A stretch of DNA of 20,552 bases from a virus. The stretch is from the IMG/VR virus record IMGVR_UViG_3300032893_000304, positions 1 through 20,552 of that record. One strand, written 5' to 3'. Positions 3,695 through 20,552 of the stretch are shown piece after piece. Made by a program: the position numbers and the translations under genes. Every line of letters starts with the position of its first letter. The first letter of the stretch is position 1. The notes below the pieces were generated by a model. It made no database searches. It was not told the origin of the DNA and saw only the letters and a list, made by a program, of their open reading frames with translations.

Positions 3695-4185
3695 GTCTTC
3701 CTCGTGACAACCGCTTGAGTGAACGGGATGACTAAGTCAGCAGTGTCATATAGCTTACGTGACGCAGAAAGCTCAAACGTCATTACGATCGTACGCTTAC
3801 CGTGGGCACGTAGGTACTCCAACAGCATAGCGAAATCGCCGTCGCCGCTCATCAGCACGTACGTGTCATAGTGAGGCAATCTGTCAACTGCATCTATAGC
3901 TATGCCGACGTCCCAATCCGTACGCGTGTGGGTATCACGTGATTTCACAGTAAAACCAAGATGGTTGAGAGCACGTTGGAACGTGTTTTGACCTGACTTG
4001 GTCTTGTTGTGTACAACTATGTACGCAGTCAAAACCTGTGTGACGATCTCAGGGTGCAACACTGCCGGGACTACCCGACCGAGCATACCAAAATCTAGCC
4101 GAGCGTCGTCACCGTACTGCCGTCTGCAGCTGTCCACCAGGTTAGTAACGTCGCACGCAACGAAGCAGCGTGCTGGAGAACTCAT
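3691..4185 (-). CDS. NYN/PIN-like domain ribonuclease (LabA/DUF88-type)
   Basis: A 164-residue single-domain protein of the NYN superfamily, a PIN-like metal-dependent RNase fold. The family pattern is clear: CDVTNL at 11-16 (D12, N15), DWDVGIAIDAV at 90-100 (D92, D98) and the hallmark VLMSGDGDFAMLLEYLRAHGK at about 110-130, split across the SGDGDF turn (D115, D117). All expected acidic residues are present, so an active nuclease is likely. ATG 4185 follows the TAA of the 47-residue gene directly, and the gene ends in an ATGA overlap with RNase H, pairing two RNA-cleaving enzymes. The target RNA is unknown; tRNA or mRNA cleavage are both seen in the superfamily. Confidence 0.85.
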   Translation of the reverse strand: MSSPARCFVACDVTNLVDSCRRQYGDDARLDFGMLGRVVPAVLHPEIVTQVLTAYIVVHNKTKSGQNTFQRALNHLGFTVKSRDTHTRTDWDVGIAIDAVDRLPHYDTYVLMSGDGDFAMLLEYLRAHGKRTIVMTFELSASRKLYDTADLVIPFTQAVVTRKT

Positions 4186-4345: not shown

Positions 4346-4876
4346 TTATGCAGCACGTAACACCAAACGGTCGTAGAAAGCTAGAACAGAACGAAGCTCA
4401 TCAAGTGTCGCGTCGTTCTTGATGGTATTCGCTTTGAAACTAACAACTACGACATTGCCGCGCACGTAACCCAAAGCACCTATAACACGGTCTAACGTAG
4501 GGCTGTTTGGGCCACACTTACCATCATTAACTATCAACGGAATTCCAAGCACTGGACAAATCTCAGGAACAACCACATCCGATTCTTGTAAATCGAATGG
4601 AACGCCCAAACGTTTAGAACGTGCTTTAGCTGCGTGTAATAAACTGAGAACTGGATTCATACGACGACGCTGCTTTAGTCCTTCCAGTATCACTAATTTA
4701 TTGGTGTCGTAATATTCTCTAGATCTGTCTCTATTGTGTTGAGGATTCTCTTTATAGTTCAACCGCCTGCATTCTTTACAACGAGACGTAAGCCGCTTGT
4801 GACTACCATCATTGCGCCAAGAAAAATGAGACGCATCTTTTTCTTGAGAACACTGTGTGCATTTACGGCTGTCCAT
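4346..4876 (-). CDS. HNH-type (zinc-finger) endonuclease
   Basis: A 176-residue protein with an N-terminal zinc-finger-like CxxC...CxxC (C6, C9, C33, C36), a basic linker, and a C-terminal His-Me-finger-like core. That core has CPVLGIPL near 107, then SPTLDRVIGALGYVRGN and VVVVSFKANTIKND at 125-154. This LDR-GY-GN-SxxAN-KND pattern is characteristic of a family of phage-borne HNH endonucleases. It could be a free-standing homing endonuclease, since it lies next to a RuvC-like gene with a 14-nt overlap, or a resident DNA-processing enzyme. The metal ligands of the core are less obvious than in classical HNH proteins, so activity is not certain. Confidence 0.75.
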   Translation of the reverse strand: MDSRKCTQCSQEKDASHFSWRNDGSHKRLTSRCKECRRLNYKENPQHNRDRSREYYDTNKLVILEGLKQRRRMNPVLSLLHAAKARSKRLGVPFDLQESDVVVPEICPVLGIPLIVNDGKCGPNSPTLDRVIGALGYVRGNVVVVSFKANTIKNDATLDELRSVLAFYDRLVLRAA

Positions 4877-5357
4877 GTATAGCCTCAGCGTATGTCACTG
4901 CTATTGCTAAAGCAGACCAAATGTCTTTAGAAATTCCGTAGGTCTTCCCTTGATTGCGTTTGGTTCCAGGAGTACCAAACTTGTCAATCAAAGCAGCTCT
5001 CACATTAGAGTCATTGGCGCGCGGACTCTGACACAAGTGCAAAGCTACCTGCTTGCGGTACACTTGAGTGTATTTCGTTCCACCCCAAGCTTGGATGAAA
5101 CGACCAATCCATACACAAGTATCAAACACAGTCTTACCAACAGCCATCCCATAGCTTGCAATCATCTCAATCGCCATGTGATCCGGTTTCCACAATGCGG
5201 CGGCGCCGACTATGGTGTCGGCAAACGATCCAGGTCCACCATTGAACCGATCTAAAAGTACAGCATTCGACTCTTTTGCGAACGACATAATCCCATCGCC
5301 TTCAAGCAGTAACCAAGCTGTCTCTTCAGGACCTGGGTCAACACCTAGAACAAGCAT
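4863..5357 (-). CDS. ruvC: RuvC-like Holliday junction resolvase
   Basis: A 164-residue RNase H-fold resolvase. Motifs in order are LGVDPGPEETAWLLL (D7), MAIEMIASYGM (E64) and SKDIWSALAIAVTYAEA (D145), matching the acidic residues of RuvC and phage RuvC-like nucleases. It would resolve four-way junctions and branched replication intermediates before packaging. The ATG at 5357 is preferred: it keeps the N-terminus at the first strand as in RuvC and overlaps thyX by only 13 nt. A GTG at 5378 is an alternative but lacks a Shine-Dalgarno. It works naturally with the UvsX/SbcCD recombination module upstream. Confidence 0.8.
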   Translation of the reverse strand: MLVLGVDPGPEETAWLLLEGDGIMSFAKESNAVLLDRFNGGPGSFADTIVGAAALWKPDHMAIEMIASYGMAVGKTVFDTCVWIGRFIQAWGGTKYTQVYRKQVALHLCQSPRANDSNVRAALIDKFGTPGTKRNQGKTYGISKDIWSALAIAVTYAEAIHGQP

Positions 5358-6145: not shown

Positions 6146-6371
6146 TGAGTCCTTTCTTCTGTTCAAGGCGCGCGATTTCACGATCCAAGTACCAACGACC
6201 CTTCTTCAAATCCACCAATACATCAGCTTTGCGTCCAGCGCGAAGAATGTACTTCACTGTGTTGCCAAGACAGAATCCAAGCTCAAAAGCTTCAATTACG
6301 TCTATTGCTTCAATCCCGCCGGACTTGTAGTGAGACGGATGATTGATCTGCTCCTTTTTAGCCTTTGGCAT
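6129..6371 (-). CDS. DUF3310 family protein
   Basis: An 80-residue protein that fits the DUF3310 phage family: INHPSHYKSGGIEAIDVIEAF at residues 9-29, then LGNTVKYILRAGRK and a DLKKGRWYLDREI helix. The family is common in phages, often near nucleotide-metabolism genes or fused to nucleotide kinases; its biochemical role is not settled. The start ATG 6371 overlaps the upstream stop as TGATG, so translation is probably coupled. The gene ends 17 nt inside the thyX reading frame, and the thyX Shine-Dalgarno lies within its last codons. Confidence 0.85.
   Translation of the reverse strand: MPKAKKEQINHPSHYKSGGIEAIDVIEAFELGFCLGNTVKYILRAGRKADVLVDLKKGRWYLDREIARLEQKKGLNANGK
6150..6155 (-). promoter_or_regulatory. 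Shine-Dalgarno fixing the thyX start
   Basis: Minus strand AAAGGA, 4 nt before ATG 6145. It selects this ATG over the farther upstream start at 6181, which would overlap the DUF3310 gene by much more, and over the internal ATG at 6139. Confidence 0.6.
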
Positions 6372-6955
6372 CAGTCCAACTTGTCCTTCAACACAGTTTG
6401 TGCTGCAGCTTCCTTCACATCCTTCGTACTGGCTGAAGTGATGATTTTAGGCGCGTCTTCCTCTTGACCCAGCGTAGCTAGTATGCGCTTCAGTGCTTCA
6501 TCAGACTTGCGACAGTTGTACATCTTCAGGATTGCCAACATCTTGCCGACCTGTGCACGAGACAAAGGCGGACCAACAGCACGCGGATTCTCGTACACAG
6601 CAGTCTCTATGCTCTTGGTTTCCTCATCGATCTTGTCCTGAATGACATAGTTCGCCTCTACGAACTTCAGGAACCGCTCACAACGCGACAGCTGTATGAA
6701 AATCGCTAGCCACCTGTTCTTCTTTGCGGCGTTGGCGTACGCAATGATGTCTTCAGGAGTCATAGGACTTGCGATCTCCCCACCAGGAGATAAACGACTC
6801 TTGAACTGCTCCGATGCCCGCGTTGGTTGCTCTACAGCAGATACCTCACCAACAGTAACTGGAGGACCATGCTCACCACAGTCGCTAACTCCATCTACGT
6901 CAGTGCTAAATTCCTTGTCACATACATTACACTTCTTTGTGACCACCAAACTCAT
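6371..6955 (-). CDS. Hypothetical protein with N-terminal zinc-ribbon-like motif
   Basis: A 194-residue protein I cannot assign. The N-terminus has CNVCDKEF followed by CGEH (C9, C12, C26, H29), which would make a C2CH zinc site. A low-complexity linker (about 35-60) follows, then a helical, charged domain with SPMTPEDIIAYANAAKKNRW and SRAQVGKMLAILKMYNC. It ends 2 nt from the upstream MazG-like stop and overlaps the DUF3310 start as TGATG, so it belongs to the same transcription unit. The zinc motif plus helical domain could indicate nucleic-acid binding, but there is no family-specific motif. Confidence 0.75.
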   Translation of the reverse strand: MSLVVTKKCNVCDKEFSTDVDGVSDCGEHGPPVTVGEVSAVEQPTRASEQFKSRLSPGGEIASPMTPEDIIAYANAAKKNRWLAIFIQLSRCERFLKFVEANYVIQDKIDEETKSIETAVYENPRAVGPPLSRAQVGKMLAILKMYNCRKSDEALKRILATLGQEEDAPKIITSASTKDVKEAAAQTVLKDKLD

Positions 6956-6957
6956 GA

Positions 6958-7329
6958 CTACACCCTTTCCGCCTTCTTCAACATCATTGCATCCGCAGCT
7001 AGCTGATTGTTCTTGTCGGTGAGCCGATCCTCTACAGCGCGCTGCAGATCAATCTGACCTTCAGGACATGTAGTGGCCATGCGGAGTGCACAAATCACTA
7101 AATCAGCAACGTACTTAGACACCTCTTCACGCACCGTCGCTCCGGCCCACTCAACACCACCGTGTTCAGCGTCATTGACGATTCCGGCAAGCTTCCCGCC
7201 CGCCTTGTGAACATGCAACAACGCATGCGCAAAATCCTTGTGAGTCATAGGCGTTGAACGAAAGTCACGATGATAGTGCCCAGTCCACGGAAGCGATGAC
7301 TGCAGCTCGCGGAGCGTTTTGTCTGCCAT
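6958..7329 (-). CDS. MazG-like nucleotide pyrophosphohydrolase (tentative)
   Basis: A 123-residue, mostly helical protein. FAHALLHVHKAGGKLAGI, then the charged segment VREEVSKYVADLVICALR, then the tail IDLQRAVEDRL with KNNQ, follow the layout of phage MazG-like proteins, which hydrolyse NTPs or dNTPs to monophosphates. The second ExxD motif is imperfect: the expected Glu before xxAD is Tyr in KYVADLVI, with Glu three residues earlier. Catalytic activity is therefore uncertain. ATG 7329 is preferred because AAGGAG sits just upstream. The longer open frame to GTG 7458 runs through a structured intergenic segment and is probably fortuitous. Confidence 0.55.
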   Translation of the reverse strand: MADKTLRELQSSLPWTGHYHRDFRSTPMTHKDFAHALLHVHKAGGKLAGIVNDAEHGGVEWAGATVREEVSKYVADLVICALRMATTCPEGQIDLQRAVEDRLTDKNNQLAADAMMLKKAERV

Positions 7330-7335
7330 TCGTAA

Positions 7336-7341
7336 CTCCTT
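7336..7341 (-). promoter_or_regulatory. Shine-Dalgarno of the MazG-like gene
   Basis: Minus strand AAGGAG, 6 nt before ATG 7329. It lies 13 nt beyond the 3' arm of the inverted repeat at 7355-7370, so the structured segment could influence its access. It decides the start of this gene. Confidence 0.65.
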
Positions 7342-7354
7342 GTTAGTTGAAAGG

Positions 7355-7370
7355 GTAGGCGCCCTGCTGA
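7355..7370. repeat. Inverted repeat arm (left)
   Basis: Plus strand GTAGGCGCCCTGCTGA. It is the inverted partner of 7498-7513 with one mismatch, which is a G-U pair in RNA. Confidence 0.85.
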
Positions 7371-7497
7371 CTGTTAAGGGGACTGGGACACCCTTGCCGG
7401 GACCTGTGTGAACAGAATCCACTGCCTGCCACCATGTGCCGATCCCATCGGAGCGCACGACCGCGTTACCGGTCCCACACCCATCGGCACAGCCTCA

Positions 7498-7513
7498 TCA
7501 GCAGAGCGCCTAC
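7498..7513. repeat. Inverted repeat arm (right)
   Basis: Plus strand TCAGCAGAGCGCCTAC, the partner of 7355-7370. It overlaps the sbcC stop codon at 7510-7512. No flanking target duplication is visible. Confidence 0.85.
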
Positions 7514-9438
7514 AACACGACTGATACACCATTCTTCTTCCTGACTGTTATCTGATTCTGGAACTGAGACTGAAGATGAGCACTGTGTGTAATGCACAGA
7601 ATCGTCTCATACCTGGACACTTCTTTGTGGAGCAACCGCACCACTGCGTCTTCACCTGTCTCATCCAGGTGAGTGAAAGGCTCGTCGAGTCCCTTGAATC
7701 TCACTGGCTTGCGTGCCCGCTGCGCTGCCAGGTCACCGAGCGCCCAACCTACGGCAATATCTACCCGCCCTTTCTCGCCATCACTGTTGCCGTGGTAAAC
7801 GTCAGCGCCGTACCGATTGTGGGCAGACACTTGGAACTGCTCGCGGCTTTCTCCGCTCTTGAGCGTAGTCTGTGTACTGAACGTAATTTTCAAGTCACCA
7901 CCTGACAACGTATCCGCGTAATACTGTGCGCGCGAGGTAAGAAACGGCACTACAGAGTCAAGCACATAGCTACGCAAGCCCTGATTACTGAATGCCGCCA
8001 GCCAGTAGTTCAAATGAACTAAGTGCGTAGTTACGATGTGGATCCTGAAATGTATACTCCGTAATGCAGTCTCATGAGTCAGAAGAGATGTATTGGCTTG
8101 GTCAATCAGTCCCTGAAACGGATTGACAGTATCGTCCAAGTCAAGAATCTCAGCGTCAAGGTGCAGTACCTGCTGTTCTAGATCACACACAGCCTTCAGC
8201 TCTGCATTACGCTTCTGGATCGCTTCTGTTGTCTGGCGCAGGTAAGCGCGCAGTGTAGACAACTCAGTCTCCATTGCAGACTTTTCAGCGCTGAACTCAG
8301 ATAGCTGCTTTGTTTCCGTCGCCTTTATGCGTCCACGTTTACGCGCAATGTCATCCATCTTCTGTTGCAGCTCTGCGGCTTCTTTGCCCCATGCCTGCAT
8401 GCATACGTCTGCTGCGTCGGGATTCAACACCTGCTTGCACGTTGGGCATGACTTACCTACAAACTGGTCTATGGTTTGCAGGTCAGATGACAATTGCCTA
8501 AGCCTACCGACTGCCATTCCTTCTTCACGTGCCAACGCTTGTTGCTTCTCACCGGCTTGTCTGGTGATTTCTAGAGCACGTTCTTGGTACGCACGCAGAC
8601 CATCCTCTAGCGCAGCCACACGCTTGCCCTGGTCCTCTTGCTGAGCTAGCAAGGCACCAAGACCACCACGTGCGTACGCCTCATCTAGGCTCACCTCGAC
8701 AGCTACACGACGCTGCACCAACTCCTTACGCCTGTTCTCTATGATCGCCGCATGTTGATCACGCTGTTGCGTCAACTTGTTTATATGTATGTGTGCGTCA
8801 TTGATCTGAGTTTCAACACGTGCCTCACCAGCGCGTAGACCAGCCATCTCTTGTTGGAGACGAATCGTACGATCTTTGACCTTGACTTGCGCGGCAGAGA
8901 GTATGTGTGTCTGCAGAATGTTCTCTAGCACTTCCTTCTGCTGCTTGTCAGTCATAGCTGAGAACGACACTGAACCCGTACGCAACATCACACTTTGTGT
9001 GAACGTCATCAGATCCATACCTACAATGGTCTGAATCTGTTCTTGCGTGTCAGCGTTAGTGCCTTCAGATACCTCTTTCCACACACCACCAACCTGAGTA
9101 TGTACACGCACGTCATTAGGCTTCTTTACGCCGCCTAGCTTACGTGTACGATCGATCAAGTACTGTCTACCGTCGTCCTCCAGATACAGACGCACACGAC
9201 AATTAGCACCTACAGAACGGTTGACAACTTCATCAGCCTTGTACCCACGCATGGTCTCGCCATACAGCGCCCATACGATAGCTTCTAGAATTGTGCTCTT
9301 GCCTGCCCCATTACTATCTGCGCCCTGACTGTCTAGGTTGCGGCCGAACACTGCTACGAGACCGCGCGCACGTAGATCAATGGTCTGCTCGTCTCCGAAT
9401 GACAGGAAGTTCTGTACAGACACACTCGAGAATCTCAT
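7510..9438 (-). CDS. sbcC: SbcC/gp46-like recombination ATPase subunit
   Basis: A 642-residue SMC/Rad50-family ATPase that, with the SbcD subunit, resects and cleaves DNA ends. The N-terminus has VSVQNFLSFGDE and the Walker A SNGAGKST (about 42-49). Long coiled-coil arms flank the zinc hook CPTC at 331-334. The C-terminal lobe carries NSDGEKGRVDIA (about 551-562) in the position of the ABC signature, and Walker B FKGLDEPFTHLDETG with D585/E586. The length is close to T4 gp46 and much shorter than bacterial SbcC. It starts with an ATGA overlap on sbcD, indicating coupled synthesis of the two subunits. Confidence 0.93.
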   Translation of the reverse strand: MRFSSVSVQNFLSFGDEQTIDLRARGLVAVFGRNLDSQGADSNGAGKSTILEAIVWALYGETMRGYKADEVVNRSVGANCRVRLYLEDDGRQYLIDRTRKLGGVKKPNDVRVHTQVGGVWKEVSEGTNADTQEQIQTIVGMDLMTFTQSVMLRTGSVSFSAMTDKQQKEVLENILQTHILSAAQVKVKDRTIRLQQEMAGLRAGEARVETQINDAHIHINKLTQQRDQHAAIIENRRKELVQRRVAVEVSLDEAYARGGLGALLAQQEDQGKRVAALEDGLRAYQERALEITRQAGEKQQALAREEGMAVGRLRQLSSDLQTIDQFVGKSCPTCKQVLNPDAADVCMQAWGKEAAELQQKMDDIARKRGRIKATETKQLSEFSAEKSAMETELSTLRAYLRQTTEAIQKRNAELKAVCDLEQQVLHLDAEILDLDDTVNPFQGLIDQANTSLLTHETALRSIHFRIHIVTTHLVHLNYWLAAFSNQGLRSYVLDSVVPFLTSRAQYYADTLSGGDLKITFSTQTTLKSGESREQFQVSAHNRYGADVYHGNSDGEKGRVDIAVGWALGDLAAQRARKPVRFKGLDEPFTHLDETGEDAVVRLLHKEVSRYETILCITHSAHLQSQFQNQITVRKKNGVSVVL

Positions 9439-14377: not shown

Positions 14378-16597
14378 TCAGTGTTTGAGTTCTTTCTTCG
14401 CTGCCCAGTTTGTCCACGACCGTGCAAAGTCAACTACAATCGGGACACGAAAATCAAAGTCCTCCATTGCTTTCTTCACCTCGCCCATGAGACCAAGCTC
14501 TTCCTTGTGCCAGTAGAACTGGATCTCATCGTGAACGAAGTTGACAATACGTGTACGTGCGTTGTGCTTCTTGAGGATGCGTCGTACACGAACAACCGCA
14601 TGCTTGAAGATGTCAGCAGCATCGCCCTGAATGAGGAAATTCACACCCTGTCGAGCAGCGCGCCCCTGCTCCCACTTCTTTGCCGAGTGGATTTTCGGTA
14701 GCCTACGAAATCTGCCGAATGTGTTCTGCAGAAATCCTTGACGGCGCATCTGCAGCTCAGTGCTATCGATCCAAGCCTTCACCCCTCGGTAACGCTGGAA
14801 GTACTTCTTGATATATGCCTTGCAAGCATCAGCAGACACCTTGCGCTTAGGCGTCGACACCTGTCGTTGGATGGCAAAAGGTCCAGCACCGTAGATGATC
14901 CCGAAGTTAACACGCTTAGCTATGTTTCTGTACCACTTTATGTCATTGTATTCTGGATGGCTTTCGTCCTTCAGAATACGCAGCACTTCGTCCAAGGGAC
15001 GTTGAAGAACTACGTCAGCACACGTAATGCTGTGAACGTCTTGCTCTTTGCCAATCCATCCAGGAGCAGTAGGCGCATACGCAGCAACGAGTGTAGGATC
15101 GTTGGACCAATGCGCAGTTAATCTCAGCTCCATCTGACTGTAGTCAGCAAACACAAACACATACTCAGAGCTTTTTGGATCCTCGAAACCAGGGATGACG
15201 AAAGCACGACGAATGTCTAGGTTCTTTCCTGGAATGTTCTGCACGTTCGGATCGTGTGAGGACATACGACCCGTAGATACGTTCGGATTGAACGAGCTGT
15301 GTAGATAGTGGTTGCTATCAACCAACTCACGTATCGCGCGCACGTATGTATTGAGTAGCTTTTGCTTGTCTCTAAACTCAATGACCTTAGCCGCGAATTC
15401 GTACTCAGCTGCAAGCTCTTCGAGTACTTCCTTGTCAACACTATACTGATCTTCGCTGACTTCGATTCCGTTACGAAGATTCTCCTTGCCTTTCTTGGTC
15501 AGCTTGGTGAGCGTACAGCCAGCCTTGCGCAAAGCTTGAAGAAGTTCTTGGTTGGAGTCGATCTTGAACTCATATCCAACGGCGGCGTAAACTTCGCGTT
15601 CTGCATCCGCCATAGCCTTCTCGAACGTTGGTTCAAGCTTGTTGAGCAGGCTAACATCAATGAGAACACCGTTGTCCTCCACTTCGTATATAGCCTGCAC
15701 CAACTCCATTTCGTTGAGATACAGACCTCTCAGAGCGTCGTGACCTGCAATGCTTGGCAATAAGCTCTTGTAGTTCATCCATGTGTAATGGACGTCAGCA
15801 CACGCATACGGCGTCATCACATCAAGAGGAACCAAGTCGTATGTGATGTCTGTCTTTTTGGCATCAGCAAACGGATGGCCAGACAGCTTCTCTTTTACCT
15901 TCTGCTTAAGTAGGTTGGTTATCTGTGCTTTTGTCTTGCCAGAAAACCGCCACATCGGATCACGCTCCTGCATCTCGGCTTCGAGCGCGGTGCGTGTCTT
16001 ATCCAACGTTGCCTTTATGATGCGTGAGAACTCTTTCCGTCTTCGTTTTGACTCATCGTCACGCCACTTGTGCAGTGCTTTCTCCCATTTGTCCGCATTC
16101 TTATCGATGAGAGAGCACGATACGTCTTTCAGAGCCTTTTCTACATTCTCATCCAGCAAGTGAACTTGAGGAACACCATCGTGACACGGACCACGTAATC
16201 CAATGCCCTCACGCTGCAACATATGCTGGTCATAGCATTTGTTCCAAAATATCTTAGTGACAGACGCGTCCTCTAGTACTGCACGCAAGTCGTCTCGAAT
16301 GTCATCAACAGACAACTGTGCCTCGTCTGTTTGATGAGCGATAGGCAAGTAGTAGTTGTTGTCAATACCCCAACCAAAAACAAAACCACACACTCTAGCG
16401 CGAACCCAATCTAAGCTGGTGGTCTCAGTGTCAACCGCAATGATCTTCTGTCTTCTCAATTCTGCGTAGAACTGACGGAACTGGCTCATGTTCTGAATCA
16501 AGTAGTATGTTGCGCCTTGAACACCTGTCCAAGAACGCATGAGCTGCGGAGCAGCCGCTACTACAACAGACGCATCAACAGATAGAACAGAAGTCAC
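14378..16597 (-). CDS. polA: Family A DNA polymerase with 3'-5' exonuclease
   Basis: A 739-residue replicative polymerase with no 5'-3' exonuclease domain. Exo I is AVDTETTSLDW (D56, E58), Exo II is NKCYDQHML (D123) and Exo III is YACADVHYT (D268). Polymerase motif A is VFADYSQMELRL (D485), motif B is RNIAKRVNFGIIYG (R557, K561, F565, Y569) and motif C is NFVHDEIQF (D690, E691). All catalytic residues are present, so it should be active and proofreading. F565 corresponds to E. coli F762. A Lys/Arg-rich insertion of roughly 70 residues lies between Exo II and Exo III (about 165-245). It starts at GTG 16597 with GAGGA overlapping the preceding stop codon. Confidence 0.95.
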   Translation of the reverse strand: MTSVLSVDASVVVAAAPQLMRSWTGVQGATYYLIQNMSQFRQFYAELRRQKIIAVDTETTSLDWVRARVCGFVFGWGIDNNYYLPIAHQTDEAQLSVDDIRDDLRAVLEDASVTKIFWNKCYDQHMLQREGIGLRGPCHDGVPQVHLLDENVEKALKDVSCSLIDKNADKWEKALHKWRDDESKRRRKEFSRIIKATLDKTRTALEAEMQERDPMWRFSGKTKAQITNLLKQKVKEKLSGHPFADAKKTDITYDLVPLDVMTPYACADVHYTWMNYKSLLPSIAGHDALRGLYLNEMELVQAIYEVEDNGVLIDVSLLNKLEPTFEKAMADAEREVYAAVGYEFKIDSNQELLQALRKAGCTLTKLTKKGKENLRNGIEVSEDQYSVDKEVLEELAAEYEFAAKVIEFRDKQKLLNTYVRAIRELVDSNHYLHSSFNPNVSTGRMSSHDPNVQNIPGKNLDIRRAFVIPGFEDPKSSEYVFVFADYSQMELRLTAHWSNDPTLVAAYAPTAPGWIGKEQDVHSITCADVVLQRPLDEVLRILKDESHPEYNDIKWYRNIAKRVNFGIIYGAGPFAIQRQVSTPKRKVSADACKAYIKKYFQRYRGVKAWIDSTELQMRRQGFLQNTFGRFRRLPKIHSAKKWEQGRAARQGVNFLIQGDAADIFKHAVVRVRRILKKHNARTRIVNFVHDEIQFYWHKEELGLMGEVKKAMEDFDFRVPIVVDFARSWTNWAAKKELKH

Positions 16598-16603
16598 GCG
16601 TCC

Positions 16604-16903
16604 TCACGCAGAGGACTTCTGTGACCTCACGTTCCACTTCTGTTGCGACCGCGGAGTGCCACCATACGCATTAGCGATGCGCTCAGGATTCTTCCTGGCT
16701 TCGCTAATTGTATGGTCGAACGCCCTTTTTCGTAGACTTTCGGCTCTACGTACAGGGTCATTCAATAGCCCAATATGGGCTGCGCTGAGGGAGCGATCTG
16801 CCTGCTTACCACAAGAGGGGCAAGGCTCGTGCTCCGCGCCAGAGGCCACAAGCGCCTCAAAGCGATGGTCACAATCGGAACAGTGGAAGTCGTAAAGAAT
16901 CAC
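16604..16903 (-). CDS. FmdB-like zinc ribbon protein
   Basis: A 99-residue protein whose first 40 residues match the FmdB/CxxC_CxxC zinc ribbon family: MILYDFHCSDCDHRFEALV with a second pair CPSCGK (C8, C11, C28, C31). The tail is basic and helical, with SLRKRAFDHTISEARKNPER. FmdB-type ribbons were first described as putative regulators; small versions are common in phages and their function is unknown. It starts at GTG 16903 without a clear Shine-Dalgarno. It stops 6 nt before the polymerase start, and its stop codon contributes to the polymerase ribosome site, so it may set polymerase translation. Confidence 0.8.
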   Translation of the reverse strand: MILYDFHCSDCDHRFEALVASGAEHEPCPSCGKQADRSLSAAHIGLLNDPVRRAESLRKRAFDHTISEARKNPERIANAYGGTPRSQQKWNVRSQKSSA

Positions 16904-18717: not shown

Positions 18718-20552
18718 TCAGCTGCCGACGGTGGCGACCTTAGCTCCAGCATTCGGTATGACGCACTTGTCCCCGTCGCAAAACTTGTCGGTCACCTCGT
18801 GACTGATATTGGTCAAATCGTAAGGACGCAGACCACTAGCCAGCTCTTCGTACTGCTCTTTAGTGATCTCAATGTAGGGCGCCTGTTTATACCCACCACC
18901 GTCTTCAGGCAGGAAGCTGACGCCTTTGAGACGTACTTCATACAACTCAAGTGCATAACCAATCTGCTTCGCCTCCTCTGGCGTAAACGTCACAGTCACC
19001 GACACTTGATTATCAGCCCAATACGCCTGCATTTGAGCAGCTATCTCAAGCTGTTCGAACATAGACACATCGGACTTGGAGCGAGAGAAATTCTGTTCAT
19101 GAACTGGAAACGATACAACCGTTGTACGTGGTGTGTATATGTCATCCTCACAGTGATAACCAGCCTCTTGCAATATGTGAGCTAGCTGTGAGTCCTTCTC
19201 CAGTCGTATGTTGCGGATGTAGTATTCGCTATGCGGGTAGTGAACTCCTGGTGTAGCTCCTGCCAGCAATGATACGGTGCCAGAAGGTTTGACAGACGTG
19301 ATTTTGTTGGACTCCGGCACACACAACCAACGTGAGTACACACTGTCAAGCCTGCGAAGGTACTTGTACCCTTTGTCGCACCAATTGAAGTGCGTACGTC
19401 TGCCGTGTTTCTGGAAACTTTGCGCTATACCAGACTGAGAGGTACCTATGCGCCGATTACGTAACATAACCGAATTGACACGCGGATCGTGCGTAGGCAC
19501 AAGCGTCACAGTCTTTGCGTACAAGTACGCATACTTCAGCGTCTTCTGATAGTCGTCGTAGTCGTCGTGGTTAGCTGGAAACGTCTCAACAAGGCATTGG
19601 TATGTGAGTGCATTACCAAACACACCCATATGTCTTTGAGGCTCAGAAAAACAATACACATCGTGTACGTCAGGCAGCGCCTCAACCATAAGCACACGTT
19701 GCTTACGTGCACGATCTATCTTCTCACCATCAGGATGAGCGTTATTACGTCCGTAACGTGATCCATAACGCGATGCTTTTTTCAGAAAAGTCGCAATATG
19801 AGATGCTTCATATGACGGAATCAACAACACCCACAAGTCGTATGTGCGCACACCGTAATTAGTCTCTTCACCTTCTGAATTAGCCAGCCGCAAAGAGGCG
19901 TGATTTACACCTATACGACGTAGTAACATTTGTGCATCACGCAATTTAGCTTCTGAGCCGTGCAAAACATAGTGATCTGTGTTTGGGTTAATCCGCAAAC
20001 AGCCATCTGTGTCAATCCAACCACCAAAAAACGAAGACAAAGATTCGTTACTCCACGTGAACACCTCTTCCGGCAGACCAGTAGTATGGTTACGCAACTC
20101 CTTTGCCAATACTAACGGGACAATGCCATGAAGTGATACACGCCGAAACGGTCTTGTATACTTATCAGGATGTTGTTCTGCGTATGGGACACCACCTAAA
20201 TGAGGCAACACACGATATTCGGGTTCTTGTACCAAAGCCAAAACACGATCATTGTCAACAAACCCATCACCAGCGACCCAACCTGCTTGGTATGCGTAAG
20301 CACACGCAACACCTCCTTCAGATGGCGGAGGTTCGCAAGACTCCAACTGCATGCCTTCTAGTAAATCACTTGTTTCCACACGATGAAACGCGCGTTGCGT
20401 CTCAGTACGTGCTGACCAAGCATGGTCATGTGTTACGTCTAGATACGATCCGTCACTCAAATGCACTCGATAGAGCTTTTTGTCTTTTGCTGCAATGAAT
20501 GGAACAACAGAGGACCACTGTACTCCATTCCAAACATCAACAGGCTTGCCTA
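18718..20552 (-). CDS. nrdJ: Class II (cobalamin-dependent) ribonucleotide reductase with in-frame intein, 5' part beyond window
   Basis: Reduces ribonucleotides to deoxyribonucleotides using adenosylcobalamin. Only the end of the intein and the C-terminal extein are in the window; the frame is open to the right edge, so the start is outside. The C-extein (19596-18718, about 292 residues) begins CLVETFP and contains NRRIGTSQSGIAQ, FNWCDKGYKYLRRL and the substrate-loop PSGTVSLLAGATPGVHYP. It resembles the monomeric RTPR type (Lactobacillus leichmannii). The tail carries CDGDKC, a CX4C pair equivalent to the C-terminal redox cysteines that recharge the active site. Thus the catalytic C-terminal half looks intact once the intein is removed. 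Confidence 0.9.
   Translation of the reverse strand, partial: GKPVDVWNGVQWSSVVPFIAAKDKKLYRVHLSDGSYLDVTHDHAWSARTETQRAFHRVETSDLLEGMQLESCEPPPSEGGVACAYAYQAGWVAGDGFVDNDRVLALVQEPEYRVLPHLGGVPYAEQHPDKYTRPFRRVSLHGIVPLVLAKELRNHTTGLPEEVFTWSNESLSSFFGGWIDTDGCLRINPNTDHYVLHGSEAKLRDAQMLLRRIGVNHASLRLANSEGEETNYGVRTYDLWVLLIPSYEASHIATFLKKASRYGSRYGRNNAHPDGEKIDRARKQRVLMVEALPDVHDVYCFSEPQRHMGVFGNALTYQCLVETFPANHDDYDDYQKTLKYAYLYAKTVTLVPTHDPRVNSVMLRNRRIGTSQSGIAQSFQKHGRRTHFNWCDKGYKYLRRLDSVYSRWLCVPESNKITSVKPSGTVSLLAGATPGVHYPHSEYYIRNIRLEKDSQLAHILQEAGYHCEDDIYTPRTTVVSFPVHEQNFSRSKSDVSMFEQLEIAAQMQAYWADNQVSVTVTFTPEEAKQIGYALELYEVRLKGVSFLPEDGGGYKQAPYIEITKEQYEELASGLRPYDLTNISHEVTDKFCDGDKCVIPNAGAKVATVGS
19597..20552 (-). other. Intein with LAGLIDADG homing endonuclease inside NrdJ (N-terminal end beyond window)
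   Basis: The part visible runs from just after the intein start to its last residue, about 318 residues. Near the right edge, VWNGVQWSSV and the block B motif DVTHDHAW (the T and H of TxxH) identify the splicing domain. The endonuclease has two LAGLIDADG helices, YQAGWVAGDGFVDN and FFGGWIDTDGCLR, each ending in an acidic residue. The C-terminal splicing block is VHDVYCFSEPQRHMGVFGN and ends LTYQ followed by Cys+1. The usual His-Asn end is replaced by Tyr-Gln. The intein would splice itself out of NrdJ and cleave intein-less nrdJ alleles. Confidence 0.88.

Follow-up and report, generated by a model that had tools for sequence, protein, structure and literature searches.

Apart from tRNAs, introns and short regulatory RNAs, phages are known to carry few structured RNAs. 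The manA and wcaG RNAs of cyanophages are candidate structured phage RNAs (PMC2864571), and host RNase III cleaves the polycistronic mRNA of phage T7 (PMC4858673). The Y RNAs that Ro60 proteins bind in bacteria measure 90-150 nt, and their two ends form a long closing stem (PMC8394870). The vertebrate Ro60 site is a short helix in which a bulged C faces a bulge of 3 nt (PMC4726728), and jumbo phages that encode TROVE proteins are known (PMC7824862).

The window analysed here (the whole 20,552-nt stretch of viral DNA), from an uncultured phage of a divergent lineage, carries a structured RNA domain that is probably part of the transcript of its sbcD-sbcC operon. The fold is shared with a related phage (L005) and conserved through compensatory changes, the domain is non-coding and folds better on the sense strand, and its position, after the sbcC stop codon and ahead of the following ribosome-binding site, is fixed.

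Setting and non-coding nature of the RNA domain

The domain and its surroundings comprise the following features:

7355-7513, minus strand: whole structured RNA domain, 159 nt, within the predicted sbcC operon transcript; homologue at L005:3788-3937 (150 nt)
7510-9438, minus strand: sbcC, the upstream gene, encoding an SbcC-like subunit (phrog_77; Pfam and PHROG hits)
7336-7341, minus strand: AAGGAG resembling a Shine-Dalgarno sequence, belonging to the downstream gene and lying beyond the RNA domain (read from the sequence)
6958-7329, minus strand: downstream gene of 123 aa, unknown function (phrog_27761; PHROG hit), with its ATG at 7329
6371-6955, minus strand: gene of 194 aa, whose homologue lies directly 3' of the RNA in L005 and directly 3' of sbcC in the more distant phage L028

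The 5' edge of the RNA, where its closing helix P1 starts, is the last base ahead of the sbcC stop codon (TAG, 7512-7510), which agrees with the preliminary description of a segment beginning at that stop. The distance from the end of the RNA to the next ATG is 25 nt in the window and 27 nt in L005. As had been proposed, this is the largest non-coding stretch of the operon: the gap from sbcC to the next ATG measures 180 nt, and the other gaps in the gene run are shorter than 100 nt, save one of 207 nt that is spanned by a 72-aa ORF. Searches for a terminator or a sigma-70-like promoter near the RNA gave no match. The downstream gene had been labelled MazG-like, a label that finds no support, as the 123-aa protein has no match in Pfam or NCBIfam and its only PHROG is a family of unknown function. 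The idea of a leader specific to that gene is also unsupported, given that the 194-aa gene comes next in L005.

Differences between the window and L005 RNAs are spread evenly over the three codon positions of the overlapping reading frame (17/16/15, compared with 50/29/120 in the 3' end of sbcC), and the RNA is therefore non-coding. This even spread, together with an in-frame stop in the window, rules out a 52-aa overlapping ORF at 7374-7532. An N-terminal extension of the downstream protein is likewise ruled out: its homologues begin at the ATG, as does the window protein at 7329, and the downstream gene of L005 starts at 3965, outside the RNA. The sense strand folds more strongly than its complement in both phages (-80 versus -66 kcal/mol in the window, -77 versus -57 kcal/mol in L005), which is what an RNA containing G-U pairs and read in the operon direction should do.

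Fold, homologue and distribution

The minus-strand fold consists of a 17-bp P1, a bulge on its 3' side (RACA), a 4-bp P1b, P2 capped by P3, and P4. Its elements are:

7497-7513, minus strand: P1a 5' arm, GUAGGCGCUCUGCUGAU, which includes the sbcC stop UAG (7512-7510); forms 17 bp with 7355-7371, every one of them kept in both phages, with 2 compensatory changes
7355-7371, minus strand: P1a 3' arm, GUCAGCAGGGCGCCUAC, paired with 7497-7513; the outermost 9 bp are the same in the two phages
7372-7375, minus strand: conserved 3'-strand bulge AACA (GACA in L005), from the alignment and consensus fold
7493-7496, minus strand: P1b 5' arm GAGG (CAGG in L005), paired with CCUU (CCUG in L005); one compensatory change, G-U to C-G
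7376-7379, minus strand: P1b 3' arm CCUU
7483-7490, minus strand: P2 5' arm, GUGCCGAU; 8 bp with 7436-7443, 3 compensatory changes and 0 broken pairs
7436-7443, minus strand: P2 3' arm, AUCGGCAC, paired with 7483-7490
7451-7482, minus strand: P3 hairpin atop P2; outer 7 bp G-U rich and present in both phages, with 1 compensatory change (U-G to G-U); inner GACCG/CGGUC in the window
7421-7435, minus strand: single-stranded J2/4, AUGGUGGCAGGCAGU, with the core GUGGYAGGCAGU nearly invariant in the alignment
7400-7420, minus strand: P4 hairpin, in both phages; outer 3 bp with 1 compensatory and 1 one-sided change; inner part differs
7380-7399, minus strand: 3' core, CGGCAAGGGUGUCCCAGUCC, in which CGGCRAGGGU is conserved in the alignment

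The elements first described are all present, namely the closing inverted repeat (16 bp with one G-U, or 17 bp counting the last U-G), a 9-bp stem (UGUGCCGAU/AUCGGCACA) enclosing the 5-bp hairpin GACCG/CGGUC, and a second hairpin, which is P4. One GGGAC and three GUCCC copies do occur in the window; the switch built on them is not borne out, with GUCCC absent from the L005 RNA and P3 of another sequence there. The loop and length of P3 also differ between the two phages.

The folding energy of 7355-7513 is -80.2 kcal/mol (z -3.5), and 7330-7520, the interval proposed for folding against shuffled sequence, reaches z -2.5; neither is extreme for the window. A thermodynamic z-score alone is not accepted as proof, since a sliding scan gives lower values (z -4 to -6) for ordinary coding stretches elsewhere in the window. 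When the window was shuffled ten times, some of the shuffled sequences also contained a 17-bp stem, with G-U allowed. The strongest-folding place of the window lies elsewhere, at 16500-16760 on the minus strand (z -7.2), around the start of polA and the end of a small zinc-ribbon gene; a 27-nt stretch within it, GTGGAACGTGAGGTCACAGAAGTCCTC, is identical in the L005 phage, where the fold is not significant (z -1.5).

L005, which was reached via a relative of the 194-aa gene, belongs to a viral contig of 171 kb, collinear with the window for much of its length. Its RNA lies directly after the sbcC stop and has the same architecture (z -4.4), thus supplying the homologue downstream of sbcC with compensatory changes that the preliminary description had called for. 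Each of the 39 assigned pairs is present in the two RNAs (P1a 17, P1b 4, P2 8, outer P3 7, outer P4 3): in a structure-aware alignment, 28 are unchanged, 3 carry one-sided and 8 two-sided changes, and 0 are broken, this covariation being a single pairwise comparison of the two members found so far. In random-substitution simulations with an equal number of changes, as many pairs were kept in 0 of 20,000 runs, and the shuffle control gave 6/500. The alignment of P3 and P4 was made manually with structure in mind, and these two therefore carry less weight; the pairing of P1a is independent of the hand alignment, and that of P2 depends on it by a one-column gap only. An alignment of 140 columns without P3 and P1b (A5) retains 6 compensatory pairs of 28, and sliding its arms by 1 to 3 columns yields at most 1 double change.

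The RNA is under strong constraint, because at third codon positions of the neighbouring sbcC 3' end identity is only about 41% (differences at 120 of 203); identity within the RNA is 76% at paired and 60% at unpaired positions. The outer 9 bp of P1, a U-G pair among them, are identical on both arms in both phages, and GUGGYAGGCAGU of J2/4, followed after P4 by CGGCRAGGGU, is nearly invariant. With 8 compensatory changes and 0 broken pairs, the L005 homologue lifts the RNA above chance, and the comparison indicates that it is real, new, lineage-specific and structured.

A model of the RNA trimmed in P3 (R1) finds one copy in the window record and one in the L005 contig, and no match in seven further related or partly related records; L011 (29% SbcC identity) has no match. 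The related SbcC contigs L009, L010 and L012 stop inside sbcC and are uninformative on the RNA. L028 has the same sbcD-sbcC-194-aa gene order and an SbcC whose C-terminal part is 59% identical, and there just 9 nt separate sbcC from the next ATG, with the RNA absent; the element is thus lineage-specific: either the lineage of the window and L005 acquired it, or it was lost elsewhere. Two DNA patterns run over viral contigs recovered only L005, other matches lacking the fold and looking like chance. No relative of the RNA was found at the DNA level in GenBank phages and plasmids, and bacterial genome scans returned no relatives of the proteins encoded next to it. The RNA is not tied to one downstream gene, because it is followed directly by the 194-aa gene in L005 and by the 123-aa gene in the window.

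Several other features of these phages were observed. The contig G001, from the relative carrying the RNA, encodes a 541-aa TROVE (Ro60/Rsr-like) protein (L031 862-2487, minus strand; E 1.3e-36) and an array of 31 tRNA genes covering many amino acids (L030, G001:24000-42000). Two genes past its RNA, L005 carries a von Willebrand factor A-like protein recognised by eye (4481-5206, plus strand); the window has no equivalent at this position. The L005 phage has a PolA of 1041 aa with an intein-like insert of about 300 aa (L029 3698-6823, minus strand), whereas the window PolA has 739 aa and no insert. By reading only, a ribonucleotide-reductase-like ORF of the window (18718-20550, minus strand) starts in an apparent, homing-endonuclease-like intein and runs off the window end.

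Possible processing and competing explanations

The tentatively favoured reading is that of a self-contained RNA domain in the sbcD-sbcC operon transcript, in which P1 is cut, probably by host RNase III, and the core of the freed RNA binds a partner. The RNA would be co-transcribed with the operon, and its P1 helix, by analogy, may act as a double-strand processing site. A cut in the polycistronic message after sbcC would release an RNA of about 150 nt, whose unpaired core (GUGGYAGGCAGU, CGGCRAGGGU and the RACA bulge) could then bind a protein or RNA. P1 is predicted to draw the sbcC stop close to the following start codon, and operon translation need therefore not suffer from the insert. No RNase III gene is present in the three phage records searched, and cutting would thus rely on the host enzyme. 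Counting against processing, cutting by RNase III alone would need no conserved single-stranded core; counting against the mechanism, L028 manages without the element. It is possible, if doubtful, that the RNA represents a new class of phage ncRNA excised from the sbcCD operon transcript, its core being a protein-bound scaffold (possibly for a phage Ro60-like protein) or a new catalytic or ligand-binding fold.

The main rival is an uncut cis-acting regulatory domain in the operon mRNA, either an aptamer or an operator bound by a protein, through which sbcC or later genes would be tuned in translation or stability. A closed multi-stem fold with conserved joining strands, flanked by a stop codon on one side and a ribosome-binding site on the other at a near constant distance from the next ATG, would suit such a role. 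However, the ribosome-binding site is not sequestered, a switching helix would hardly be as long as the 17-bp P1, there is no visible terminator, the two phages have different genes immediately downstream, and the proposed GGGAC/GUCCC switch has no counterpart in L005. A cis domain of this kind is unlikely. A riboswitch leader in particular is not supported, in view of the differing downstream gene, the lack of a terminator and a ribosome-binding site outside the fold.

It is improbable that the RNA is a stand-alone partner of a phage Ro60/Rsr (TROVE) protein, i.e. a divergent Y RNA. The L005 phage does encode a TROVE protein, and the bacterial Y RNAs share the size range and closing end stem (PMC8394870). 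However, the YrlA and Y_RNA models do not match, the bulged C that marks the vertebrate Ro60 site (PMC4726728) is missing from P1, an arm resembling a T-loop is not evident, and the TROVE gene lies about 26 kb from the RNA and is absent from the window fragment, itself only 20.5 kb. The RNA is accordingly not classed as a Y RNA.

A new self-cleaving or otherwise catalytic RNA is a very improbable explanation of the highly conserved unpaired core around the junction, as no Rfam ribozyme matches. In the window, CUGAUGA followed by a short stem-like stretch resembles a hammerhead; this candidate was rejected, as the motif reads UUGAUCA in L005, lies inside P1 and P1b, is accompanied by no GAAA and has no Rfam match. 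An element acting as DNA, whether a structure used in replication or an inverted repeat belonging to a small mobile element, is similarly remote: it would fit the invariance of the outer P1 pairs on both arms and the absence from L028, but there is a single copy per record, the several G-U pairs of each RNA become A-C mismatches on the other, more weakly folding strand, and the records yielded no reverse transcriptase. Chance conservation, or an artefact of two related sequences, is already disfavoured and barely credible, for although single-sequence folding is no outlier in the window and only two sequences are known, every changed pair still pairs, 8 by double change, and identity in the RNA exceeds that at sbcC third positions.

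A conserved, unclassified RNA of this kind, which two related phages have in a fixed place at the 3' end of a recombination-nuclease gene and a third lacks cleanly, is a defined target for tests of message processing, of partnership with a phage RNA-binding protein and of regulation of replication and recombination genes. Should it merely mark a processing site, the result would be modest, yet would define a new element.

Relation to known RNA families

In keeping with the initial impression that the segment belongs to no recognised family, Rfam 15 finds none on the window at the gathering threshold, and up to E 10 lists only two chance-level matches, both on the opposite strand. The YrlA model (RF02553) has no match at the RNA or anywhere in the window, and RF00019 is also unlisted up to E 10; in G001, RF02553 gives only sub-threshold matches, at 24-33 kb, which is the tRNA region. 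A reverse transcriptase (RVT_1) was found in none of the window, L005 and L028 records, of which the window and L028 are short and may be fragments, and a retron ncRNA was rejected for these records on that ground. A search for TnpB, the kind of nuclease that would accompany an OMEGA (TnpB-associated) RNA, returned a sub-cut-off zinc-ribbon match to a small window ORF and none in L005.

The RNA resembles YrlA and other bacterial Y RNAs in size range and long end-to-end stem, and the related L005 phage encodes a TROVE protein; unlike them, it has no covariance-model match, bulged C or tRNA-like T arm and does not lie beside a TROVE gene. Its P1 comprises 17 unbroken bp with a 4-nt bulge on the 3' strand only, an arrangement distinct from the vertebrate Ro60 site. 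Like manA and wcaG, it is a structured RNA from comparative analysis of phage genomes; those RNAs, in contrast, are proposed leaders of specific gene groups, and the present one has no Rfam match. Compared with the RNase III sites of T7 early mRNA, it is far larger and multi-stemmed, has a nearly invariant unpaired core, and its cleavage is putative; like them, it places a double-stranded helix in a polycistronic phage message, after a stop codon and ahead of the following ribosome-binding site. A long double-stranded helix between cistrons, as in an RNase III site, is present in both phages in the form of the 17-bp P1.
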